A DNA stretch of 64,000 nucleotides from Orenia metallireducens. GTDB lineage: Bacteria; Bacillota; Halanaerobiia; Halobacteroidales; Halobacteroidaceae. The position numbers and the translations under genes were made by a program. The stretch lies in the NCBI RefSeq assembly GCF_003001995.1, contig NZ_PVNB01000021.1, positions 1 through 64,000 on the forward strand. Direction: 5' to 3'. Shown piece by piece: positions 6,500 to 24,388 of the stretch. A model generated the notes under the pieces. It made no database searches. It was not told the DNA's origin and was given only the letters and a program-made list of their open reading frames with translations. Within the stretch, counting starts at the first letter, position 1; every line of letters begins with the position of its first letter.

Positions 6500-7588
6500 A
6501 TGAGTTTCAATGATGAAGAGTTTACTGAAATCTTAAAATTGGTTGCTCCAGGAACCCCTTTTAGAGAAGGATTAGAGAATGTTTTACGAGCTAAGACTGG
6601 GGCTTTAATTGTAGTAGGTGATAGTGAAGAGGTCTTAGCGGCTGTTGATGGAGGATTTAATATTAATTGTGAGATGACTCCTACTAGATTATATGAACTT
6701 GCTAAAATGGATGGGGCGATTGTATTAAGTAGTGATGCCCAGAGAATTTTGTGTGCTAATACACAATTGGTTCCTGATCCTTCAATCTCTTCGGTAGAAA
6801 CAGGTACTAGACACCGTACTGCTGAAAGAATAGCCAAACAGACTAGAGAACTTGTTGTATCAATTTCTCAAAGAAGAAATATAATAACTTTATATAAAGA
6901 AGATAAAAAATATATATTAGAGCAGATTAGTGTTATTTTAACAAAGGCTAATCAAGCAATTCAGACCTTAGAAAAGTACAGGAGTGTTTTAGACCAAGTC
7001 TTAACTAATTTAAGTGCTTTGGAGTTTGAAGATTTAGTTACTATTTCTGATGTAGCTACTGCTGTTCAGAGGGCAGAGATGGTATTAAGGATTGTTGAAG
7101 AAATAGAGAAGTATATCAATGAGCTAGGTAGTGAGGGTCGTTTGATTAAGATGCAGTTAGAAGAGTTAGTGGCCAATGTTAAAGAAGAGGGATTATTAAT
7201 TATTAAGGATTATCAAGCTGAGATGGAAGGTGAAGAAGAGGTAAATGACGAAGAATCTATTGATATTTTTGAAAAGTTCTCTTCATATGTATCCGATGAA
7301 TTGCTCAGTTTATCCACAATAAGTAAGCACTTAGGTTATGGTGGTAATATAAATGCTTTAGATCTATCTATTTCACCTAGAGGTTATAGGTTATTACGAA
7401 AGATTCCCCGACTACCAATGGCAGTTATTGAAAACTTGGTAGAGGTCTTTGGGGATTTTCAAGAGATACTCAATGCATCTATTGATGAATTAGATGATGT
7501 TGATGGAATTGGGGAAGTAAGAGCCCAGGCTATAAAAGAAGGATTGAAGCGGTTAAGGGATCAAGTCTTATTAGATCGGCATATTTAG
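6500..7588 (+). CDS. disA: DNA integrity scanning diadenylate cyclase DisA
   Basis: Makes c-di-AMP from two ATP and scans DNA for branched structures. The DAC domain (about residues 1-145) carries the catalytic motifs DGA (71-73) and RHR (104-106). A helical linker follows, then a C-terminal helix-hairpin-helix domain ([16 protein letters not shown]). Length is 362 residues, as expected. The GGGGGGTGA SD lies over the radA stop, so the two genes are translationally close. Confidence 0.96.
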
Positions 7589-9642: not shown

Positions 9643-10335
9643 ATGAAAGTAAGTGTAGTAATTCCGGCAGCAGGACAAGGTAAGAGGATGGAAGCTAATA
9701 AGAACAAGCAGTTTTTATTATTAGGTGGTAAGCCGATTTTGTCACATACAATTACTATCTTTGAAAGCAGTTCTAGTATTGATGAGATTATATTGGTTGC
9801 TCAAAGTGAAGAGTTAGACTATTGTCAATCTGAAATCATACATAAATATAATTTTAATAAAGTGAGTAAAATAATAGCAGGTGGAGCAACGAGGCAAGAA
9901 TCGGTCTACAATGGATTGAAGGCTGTATCTGAAGATGCTGATTTTATTTTAATTCATGATGGTGCTCGACCATTATTGACAAATGAGCTAATTGAACATA
10001 TAATTACAGAGGTTGAAAAGTATCAGGCAGTGGCTATTGGTGTTCCAGTAAAAGATACAATCAAAATAATCAATCAAGATAAAGTTGTTGTTGATACTCC
10101 AAAAAGGGATAATTTAATTGCTATTCAGACACCACAGGCTTTTAGAAGAAATTTGATATTAGAGGCTTATCAAAGAGCTTGTGAGGATGATTATTTAGGC
10201 ACAGATAGCTCTAGCTTAGTAGAAAGGTTGAATAAAGAGATAAGAGTTATAGAAGGCTCTTATGAAAATTTAAAGATAACTACTCCAGAAGATTTGGAAT
10301 TGGCAGAAAGAATTATATCAAGGAGGTTGGTATGA
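9643..10335 (+). CDS. ispD: 2-C-methyl-D-erythritol 4-phosphate cytidylyltransferase
   Basis: Third step of the MEP isoprenoid pathway: MEP + CTP gives CDP-ME. The nucleotide-binding loop PAAGQGKRM opens the protein. The conserved IHDGARPLL and GVPVKDTIK segments and the C-terminal [10 protein letters not shown] follow. ATG 9643 is chosen (SD GGAGG 8 bases upstream; family starts with a short strand before AAGxGxRM) over an upstream TTG at 9619. 230 residues. The stop overlaps the ispF start by 4 bases (ATGA). Confidence 0.95.
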
Positions 10336-10805
10336 GAGTAGGTATTGGCTACGATGTTCATAAATTGGTAGAAGGTGAAAGCTTAATATTAGGTGGAGTT
10401 AAGATAGATTATTCCCATGGATTAGAGGGTCACTCTGATGCTGATGTTTTATTACATGCTATTAAAGATGCTTTATTAGGAGCGGTTGGAGAAGGAGATA
10501 TTGGGCGTCACTTTCCCGACGATGACCCCCAATATAAAGGTATTTCTAGTTTAAAATTATTAGCTGAAGTAAGTAAACTAATCTTTAATAAAGGTTTTGA
10601 GCTTAATAATTTAGATGGTGTAATTATTGCTCAAAAGCCTAAATTAGCACCTTATATCAAGCGAATGGAAGAGAACATAGCTCAGGTTCTAGACGCTGAT
10701 TTAGATAAAGTAAACATCAAGGCAACAACTACAGAAAGATTGGGTTTTGTTGGCAGAGAAGAAGGGATTGCAGCAGAAGCAATAGTAAGTGTAAAAGAGA
10801 GGTAG
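10332..10805 (+). CDS. ispF: 2-C-methyl-D-erythritol 2,4-cyclodiphosphate synthase
   Basis: Fifth step of the MEP pathway, releasing CMP to give MEcPP. The metal-binding motif GYDVHKL and the [17 protein letters not shown] segment are intact, as is the C-terminal [21 protein letters not shown]. 157 residues, typical. It is translationally coupled to ispD by the ATGA overlap, and the CBS-HutP gene starts 9 bases after its stop. Confidence 0.96.
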
Positions 10806-10814
10806 GTATAAATA

Positions 10815-11585
10815 ATGTTAGTTAAAGAGCTAATGAGTTCGACTATAATTACAGTAAGTCCAGAAGCAACTGTTGGAGAAGCAGAACGGTTAATGAGTGT
10901 AAATAGTATTGGAAAAGTAGTAGTAGCAGATGGTAAGCAAGTAATAGGGATTGTAACTGATGGGGATTTAGTAAATCAGCATAATTTAAATATACTTATT
11001 AAAGAGGTTATGAAAGCAGAAGTAATCACAATAAATGAAAATAAGAGCATTCAAGAAGCTGCTCAGCTATTATCAGATAATCAGATTAGTGGAGTTCCAG
11101 TTTTGGATGATGAAGGAGAGCTTGTTGGTATTATTACTTCTTCTGATATTGTATCGGGTTATGTTAAAGAAGAGAGAACTGCAAAGTTATCTCCAGAAAG
11201 CTCTGCTATTTACTTATCGATGACTAGAAGTAGAGAATATGAAAATTACTGGTTAGATAAGATTAAAGGGTATGGGTATAGAGTTGCTATTACTCAAACT
11301 GGTGCAAATGCTGAAAATTTACCTATTAAATTAAGAGAAAGTACAACAGTAGCGGCCATTGCTCGAGGAGTTATCAGAGAAAACTTAAGAGAGAAGATGG
11401 CTGTATCTAATGCAGTTAAGGATGCTTATACTCAACTTAATCTGGTTAATCCTGGTTTGGGTGGAGGATTTAAAGTTGCTATTGTACGAGGTGAAGGTAG
11501 GCTAGCGGTAGCCGTATTTGGAAAGTTTGGACATGCTTTGGTAGATGGACCAGAACAGCTATCTGTAGGTATGAGTGTAATTTAA
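10815..11585 (+). CDS. CBS-pair / HutP-like fusion regulator
   Basis: 256 residues in two parts. Residues 1-118 are a CBS pair (KELMSSTIITVSPEATV... and KEVMKAEVITINENKSI...), a module that usually binds adenosyl ligands. Residues ~130-256 resemble HutP, the histidine-dependent RNA-binding antiterminator of the Bacillus hut operon: the segment GVIRENLREKMAVSNAV and the C-terminal strands with VAIVRG, VAVFGKFG and VGMSVI line up with it. By this alignment, the HutP metal-binding histidines (73, 77, 138) are replaced by Met195, Asn199 and Gln249, so L-histidine/Mg sensing as in Bacillus is unlikely. Inference: an RNA-binding regulator gated by a nucleotide. It sits in one transcript with ispDF and is followed by a terminator. 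Target unknown. Confidence 0.75.
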   Translation: MLVKELMSSTIITVSPEATVGEAERLMSVNSIGKVVVADGKQVIGIVTDGDLVNQHNLNILIKEVMKAEVITINENKSIQEAAQLLSDNQISGVPVLDDEGELVGIITSSDIVSGYVKEERTAKLSPESSAIYLSMTRSREYENYWLDKIKGYGYRVAITQTGANAENLPIKLRESTTVAAIARGVIRENLREKMAVSNAVKDAYTQLNLVNPGLGGGFKVAIVRGEGRLAVAVFGKFGHALVDGPEQLSVGMSVI

Positions 11586-11593
11586 TAATATAT

Positions 11594-11627
11594 AAGGGCG
11601 GTCAGTTAAACTGGTTGCCCTTTGTTT
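11594..11627 (+). terminator. Terminator after the CBS-HutP gene
   Basis: AAGGGC...CAGTT and AACTG...GCCCTT form a two-part stem, followed by TTTGTTTT. It ends the yacL/ispDF/CBS-HutP transcript. Confidence 0.85.
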
Positions 11628-11646
11628 TAGCAAGAGGATAGTTAGC

Positions 11647-11675
11647 TTGCAAAGGCTTATAAGATGTTTTATAAT
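11647..11675 (+). promoter_or_regulatory. Promoter of gltX
   Basis: TTGCAA (11647-11652), 17-base spacer, TATAAT (11670-11675). It lies between the previous terminator and the gltX start at 11710. Confidence 0.7.
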
Positions 11676-13167: not shown

Positions 13168-13189
13168 GTTTTATAAAAAATAATGGCTA

Positions 13190-13432
13190 TGAAAGGGATT
13201 AGTAAATTAGATTAATTCTTTTAGAGAGAAGGTATCATAGGCTGAAAATACCTTTAAGAATATCTAATTGAATGCCCCCTTGAGCTAAATAGCTGAAAAA
13301 GTATTAGTAGGTTATTTCGTTTAGTCAGCGTTATTTGACTAGAAAGTGAGTTATCTTACTAGTAGGGTAGCTAAGCAGAGTGGAACCACGGCCTGTCGTC
13401 TCTGAATTAAAGGGGATGACAGGTCTTTTTAC
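13190..13432 (+). promoter_or_regulatory. T-box leader with Cys (TGC) specifier
   Basis: Stem I: AATTAGAT (13205-13212) pairs with ATCTAATT (13262-13269). Below it the specifier loop has AGTA on the 5' side (13201-13204) and GAATGC on the 3' side, closed by GGG/CCC. TGC (13273-13275) is a Cys codon. The T-box motif AGAGTGGAACCACGG is at 13377-13391. It is followed by terminator arms CCTGTCGTCTC and GGGATGACAGG and TCTTTTT (13392-13430). Uncharged tRNA-Cys should promote read-through into cysE-cysS, which fits both gene products. Confidence 0.93.
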
Positions 13433-24194: not shown

Positions 24195-24361
24195 GTGATA
24201 AAAAAGAATACGGTTTAAAGCTGTAGACAGTAGGTGCTTTAACAAGCTTAAATAATACCTGCCGAGGCTGGAGTGACTTGTACTTGATAACATACAGTGT
24301 AATTTATTTATACTGTTCGTATATAGTTAAAAAGTCTCCAGCTTTGCTGGAGGCTTTTTAC
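24195..24361 (+). promoter_or_regulatory. L10 leader with intrinsic attenuator
   Basis: About 165 untranslated bases precede rplJ, with the L10-leader-like segments GTAGACAGTAGGTGC and TACCTGCCGAGGCTGGAG. It ends in a terminator (CTCCAGC, TTT loop, GCTGGAG, GCTTTTT at 24336-24359). In Firmicutes L10(L12)4 binds this leader to control read-through. Identification rests on position, pieces of sequence and the attenuator; the full fold was not computed. Confidence 0.75.
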
Positions 24362-24388
24362 TTTTTATTAAGGAGGTGGATGAACAGA

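Follow-up and report, generated by a model that had tools for sequence, protein, structure and literature searches.

The window, by which we mean the whole 64,000-nucleotide stretch of DNA analyzed, contains the gene run clpC-radA-disA-carD-PIN/TRAM-ispD-ispF followed by an intact open reading frame of 256 codons, running from ATG to TAA, whose start codon lies 9 nt 3' of the end of ispF. A Pfam search of the 256-aa product identified two tandem CBS motifs (PF00571, residues 1-118, E 1.2e-29) and a HutP domain (PF09021, residues 130-254, E 1.4e-32, 113 bits where the cut-off is 25), and no other convincing domain beyond these. HutP is usually regarded as a histidine-specific antiterminator of Bacillus. 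The protein, here called CBS-HutP, is a widely conserved bacterial protein in which a CBS pair is combined with the fold of HutP, an antiterminator that binds RNA, and it probably functions as a nucleotide-responsive gene regulator. The fusion is already visible to databases, both domains being catalogued and detected by Pfam; we found no description of CBS-HutP, of HutP as a family, or of HutP together with chorismate mutase in a literature search that reached a minority of subscription journals. The features of the locus are as follows.

6500..7588, + strand: disA, within the ordinary clpC-radA-disA-carD run (window ORFs, neighborhood reading)
9649..10335, + strand: ispD, counted from a start codon inside the listed ORF (window ORFs, neighborhood reading)
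10332..10805, + strand: ispF, the immediate upstream neighbor (window ORFs, neighborhood reading)
10815..11585, + strand: CBS-HutP fusion gene, 256 aa (ORF and translation; Pfam CBS twice plus HutP; 49 of the 59 genomes of the class have an orthologue)
10815..11168, + strand: CBS pair, residues 1-118 (Pfam CBS in two stretches; Z ~18-19 to AcuB, DarB and other CBS pairs)
10947..10967, + strand: CBS1 motif G45-x-x-T48-x-x-D51, putative adenosine-type site (G45 and D51 invariant; position 48 is T/S in 36 of 45 orthologues)
11127..11147, + strand: CBS2 motif G105-x-x-T108-x-x-D111, putative adenosine-type site (G105 and D111 invariant; position 108 is T/S in 45 of 45)
11196..11582, + strand: HutP domain, residues 128-256 (Pfam HutP 1.4e-32; HutP fold at Z 14-18.6; 58 of 129 columns invariant in 45 orthologues)
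11397..11399, + strand: Met195, at the place of HutP His73 (profile alignment; M/I/L/S among orthologues)
11409..11411, + strand: Asn199, at the place of HutP His77 (profile alignment; N in 43 of 45 orthologues)
11553..11558, + strand: Glu247-Gln248, at the place of HutP Glu137-His138 (profile alignment; E in 45 of 45, Q in 43 of 45)
11594..11622, + strand: intrinsic-terminator-like hairpin just 3' of CBS-HutP (13 pairs and a T-rich tail; -16.1 kcal/mol for 11586-11640, z -2.6)
11647..11675, + strand: promoter-like site before gltX, TTGCAA-17-TATAAT (consensus scan only)

By both profile and fold, CBS-HutP belongs to the PF09021 family in the broad sense. An AlphaFold2 model built on an alignment of 45 orthologues (mean pLDDT 88.5; pTM 0.52, so the arrangement of the domains is uncertain) places helices at residues 127-135 and 140-152, a strand at 156-164, helices at 169-183 and 191-211, and strands at 217-226, 229-237 and 247-255, which is the helix-helix-strand-helix-helix-strand-strand-strand order of HutP. 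The HutP part of the full model superimposed on 4ok9 at Z 18.6 (131 residues, rmsd 2.4), with 1wpv, 1vea and the RNA complex 1wmq at Z 18.2, 18.0 and 17.6. Foldseek on the whole model returned mainly CBS pairs, so the HutP part was also modeled separately, and six HutP entries then matched at Z 14.0-15.6 (1vea 15.6) with the next fold at 7.8. Profile-profile comparison with eight true HutP sequences, for which the references were checked against PDB chains, gave a probability of 93.6 (E 2e-7). Single-sequence phmmer searches of PDB sequences, with either the HutP part or an AroH-type HutP copy described below, returned no HutP match, and for the HutP part the profile and fold searches were required. 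CBS-HutP thus resembles the HutP of Bacillus subtilis and Geobacillus thermodenitrificans (PF09021; 1vea, 1wmq, 4ok9) in profile, fold and element order. A sequence-only reading of this DNA had proposed a CBS pair at residues 1-118 joined to a HutP-like C-terminal part, and Pfam, the AlphaFold2 fold match and the profile-profile result bear it out; it had staked the assignment on a HutP profile hit and a HutP-like fold for residues 125-256, and both were obtained (93.6; Z 14-18.6).

Within this shared fold, all three metal ligands of Bacillus HutP (His73, His77 and His138) are replaced. The sequence-only reading had set Met195, Asn199 and Gln249 in their places; the profile alignment agrees for M195 and N199, but residue 249 is Leu and the glutamine is residue 248. 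A MAFFT alignment sets P246 rather than Q248 on His138, so this third ligand position is less sure. Glu137 is retained as Glu247, and N199, E247, Q248 and D203 at the former pocket are almost invariant across orthologues. Given the conservation of N199 (43/45), Q248 (43/45) and E247 (45/45), the alignments indicate a ligand site that is changed in a fixed way and not decayed. The residues E55, T56, R98, T99 and T128, invariant in true HutP, are not kept in the alignment or the profile comparison: the R98-T99 segment is absent and the other three are changed. Several of these five are, we presume, RNA contacts in true HutP, and because they are missing, recognition of UAG or hut-type RNA is not expected from the CBS-HutP sequence. 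Judged by three metal histidines, marker residues and a hutH/hutU neighborhood, CBS-HutP does not look like a true HutP; it differs further in its extra CBS pair and its position outside a hut locus. True HutP is a hexamer that is activated by L-histidine and Mg and binds NAG repeats (PMC7430163).

The two parts of the protein are under very different constraint. Relative to the window protein, the HutP part of orthologues is 68-94% identical versus 30-63% for the CBS part, and over 45 orthologues 58 of 129 columns are invariant in the former versus 8 of 118 in the latter. At distant loci the median identities of ClpC (61%), CarD (60%) and DisA (58%) all fall below the 68-74% of the HutP part. 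These values point to strong purifying selection on the HutP part, above that on most neighbors. By its conservation the HutP part resembles an effector whose partner or target is conserved; the CBS pair resembles an ordinary sensor that drifts but retains its binding motif.

Of the 59 genomes of the class, 49 carry a full-length or near-full-length orthologue, and further orthologues are found in other Bacillota clades, with full-length identities of 51-96%. Across the phylum, 36 of 398 sampled genomes, or 25 of 267 genera, encode CBS-HutP, and a scan of an 84,980-species collection recovered 49 loci. These come from Halanaerobiales and several further MAG lineages of Bacillota, and most encode proteins with 51-79% full-length identity to that of the window. 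Wherever the flanks could be read, the gene lies directly 3' of ispD or ispD-ispF and runs in the same direction, and the survey of fusions and neighbors suggested in the sequence-only reading thus finds a widespread gene in a fixed place. The downstream neighbor varies: most Halanaerobiales have gltX there, and the distant loci checked have murA plus a gene for a DPBB lytic transglycosylase. Four related loci, L188 and L190-L192, lack CBS-HutP, and there gltX comes directly after ispF, with a gap of ~20-35 nt in L190-L192 and 555 nt in L188. No remnant of the gene was found in the 555-nt gap, and L190-L192 are likewise without trace of it, from which it follows that the gene is not essential in that lineage. 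CBS-HutP is therefore conserved but dispensable, and these losses offer natural comparisons for its presence and absence.

To place the fusion within its family we gathered 125 HutP-domain sequences and built a tree of 67, a sample biased toward high-scoring hits and not a census. The tree resolves five groups, each forming one side of a branch, and the Orenia genome itself holds three of the five. Only two clades retain all three histidines: true HutP (support 100/99; H/H/H in 12/12), which adjoins hutH/hutU in most loci read, and a second histidine-bearing clade (100/97; H/H/H in 8/9) that is without the R98-T99 segment. Members of this second clade (L168-L172, L183) adjoin genes for CoA-transferase III, MadL/malonate transport, carboxyl transferase, nif/GlnB or purine permease. 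A small R/R/H clade (99/97; three sequences) includes a copy in the Orenia genome (G000:C12:62734-63120; L163:5657-6145) beside hprK and PTS IIA and a member at L181 beside another PTS-like gene; because of these neighbors, HPr kinase/PTS IIA or PTS-like, we suggest a carbon-catabolite role.

The commonest standalone type sampled is an AroH-associated clade (100/99) with Gly/Gly at positions 73 and 77 in 41 of 41 sequences. The gene for type I chorismate mutase, aroH, lies directly 3' of the standalone HutP in 29 of 31 loci across Bacillota (one aroH was confirmed by Pfam), and this conserved pairing suggests an as yet undescribed role in the synthesis of aromatic amino acids, as partner or regulator. 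Members include a copy in the Orenia genome (G000:C16:58010-58387; L164:4445-4897) and L004-L033. They share with CBS-HutP the Pfam family, the lack of histidine ligands and a side of the tree (95/85, with long stems and bootstrap not fully settled), but differ in having no CBS pair, in the Gly/Gly residues and in their place beside chorismate mutase. The CBS fusion forms its own clade (96/96), and it alone among the five has a second sensor that can be seen. Nearly all Gly/Gly and Arg/Arg proteins are open frames of ~140-190 aa, too short for an additional CBS pair, and ligand loss or change is common in the Pfam HutP family without tracking the fusion. Since other ligand-less clades (41 AroH-associated and 3 Arg/Arg proteins) are without a CBS pair, loss of the histidines does not imply that the CBS pair replaced histidine as the signal, as had been proposed from the sequence. 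We accordingly rejected metal-histidine loss as proof of a CBS takeover on the basis of the 125-sequence survey. The HutP fold thus emerges as a broad Bacillota family in which five or more clades each have distinct residues at the ligand site and a distinct gene neighborhood.

With its two tandem motifs and its fold (Z ~19), the CBS part is a CBS pair, or Bateman module. Its nearest fold neighbors are AcuB (with AMP, ADP or ATP), DarB and OpuCA. At the predicted cleft, the T/S-x-x-D motif of adenine-nucleotide-binding CBS pairs is present in CBS2 of 45/45 orthologues and in CBS1 of 36/45, and from the kept G-x-x-T/S-x-x-D motif together with the CBS fold we infer that the pair may bind adenine nucleotides. 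AcuB, DarB/CbpB and OpuCA have the CBS pair fold and the putative nucleotide motif in common with CBS-HutP but are without a HutP domain; DarB consists of CBS only, and the C-terminal domain of AcuB, which we take to be ACT, is different from HutP. In CcpN, a CBS pair is likewise joined to a nucleic-acid-binding effector, there a DNA-binding HTH in place of the HutP fold. The NCBIfam CcpN model scored 25.6 bits on the CBS part, and the CbpB model 31 bits on one CBS repeat only, well below its equivalog cut-off of 125. The nearest CBS relatives seen are three ORFs that encode a CBS pair alone, with 42-46% identity to that of CBS-HutP (G416:C22:157067-157423, G081:C4:62723-63082, G421:C100:62218-62571).

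We tentatively favor, at somewhat less than an even chance, a non-essential regulator in which the CBS pair senses an adenine nucleotide and alters an oligomeric HutP-type effector acting on RNA. The CBS pair would bind an adenine nucleotide, most likely AMP, ADP or ATP, and the nucleotide-bound pair would shift the activity of the effector domain, which, as an oligomer, would most probably bind a single-stranded RNA motif and control transcript read-through or translation. Its recognition surface would differ from that of B. subtilis HutP, without a bound histidine-metal center. RNA binding or antitermination is here predicted from the fold only, and oligomerization and the control of one domain by the other are presumed. 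The Pfam assignment, the fold match (including RNA-bound 1wmq), the CBS2 motif in 45/45 orthologues and the constraint on the HutP part support a nucleotide-responsive regulator, and the identities of 68-94% versus 30-63% fit an effector whose target is conserved, joined to a sensor that drifts. Against action on RNA stand the lost true-HutP residues, the lack of enrichment of HutP-type UAG-N4-UAG-N4-UAG in the 64-kb window (26 seen versus 34 expected) and the failure to find a conserved attenuator around the gene across orthologous loci. The missing hut-type marker residues also favor a different role for the HutP fold, namely action on a small metabolite or protein partner as a two-input metabolic sensor working by protein contact; N199, E247, Q248 and D203, almost invariant, make the pocket look reused, and the CBS-only protein DarB acts by binding Rel and pyruvate carboxylase, as three reports describe (PMC7900238, PMC9848473, PMC8822347). 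The solved members of the HutP fold, however, are ssRNA-binding antiterminators only, and the true-HutP clade adjoins its own regulated operon, and we regard a role away from RNA as unlikely, if a serious contender. A fuller version of the RNA reading strikes us as doubtful: a HutP-fold transcript regulator, gated by adenine nucleotides through the CBS pair, would couple mRNA read-through directly to the energy state of the cell (or to c-di-AMP), and would represent one of five or more family branches, each fitted to a different metabolic signal. If RNA is indeed bound under nucleotide control, CBS-HutP would be a protein switch through which energy state acts on mRNA control; because the sensor is fused to the effector, nucleotide control can be tested in vitro.

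More specific assignments of ligand or target fare worse. The disA gene ends 3.2 kb upstream of CBS-HutP (4.3 kb start to start) and shares its gene run in the window and in most Halanaerobiales loci, and the c-di-AMP-binding CBS pairs of DarB and OpuCA are fold neighbors, so that c-di-AMP made by DisA could be the ligand, a link that the earlier reading had itself offered as speculation. The distribution does not support it: seven loci with CBS-HutP (L101, L103, L105, L107-L109, L112) have no disA at this place in the run, L188 and L190-L192 have disA without the fusion, and the low CbpB score also speaks against it. An argument from co-occurrence was rejected as uninformative, a diadenylate cyclase domain being present in 58 of 59 class genomes. 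The clpC-radA-disA-carD run is standard Bacillota synteny; the nearness of disA is ordinary synteny and weak evidence, and we consider c-di-AMP an improbable ligand. Membership of the HutP family would also allow CBS-HutP to be a true histidine-type HutP, with a different mode of L-histidine binding and a role in regulating histidine use, yet all three metal ligands are replaced, CBS-HutP never adjoins hut genes in the loci read, and a search with PF00221 found no histidine ammonia-lyase in the Orenia genome and the enzyme in 28 of 59 class genomes versus 49 of 59 for CBS-HutP; we give this reading almost no credence. Very unlikely as well is that CBS-HutP antiterminates the next gene, gltX, at the hairpin at 11594-11622, in the manner of hutP on hutH. 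A terminator-like hairpin does separate the two genes here, and by eye L064 and L067 have a similar one, but most orthologous loci do not, most Halanaerobiales loci having a short gap; the distant loci checked have murA in place of gltX as the next gene, and gltX in the window has its own promoter-like site. As a general mechanism, cis antitermination of gltX was rejected because neither hairpin nor neighbor is conserved.

Other transcription signals lie in the window. A perfect TTGACA-17-TATAAT inside ispD (9976-10004) is a candidate promoter for ispF and CBS-HutP, as a consensus match only. Rfam models identified a T-box leader between gltX and cysE (13180-13406, 129.7 bits) and a ribosomal protein L10 leader at 24203-24370 (63 bits).
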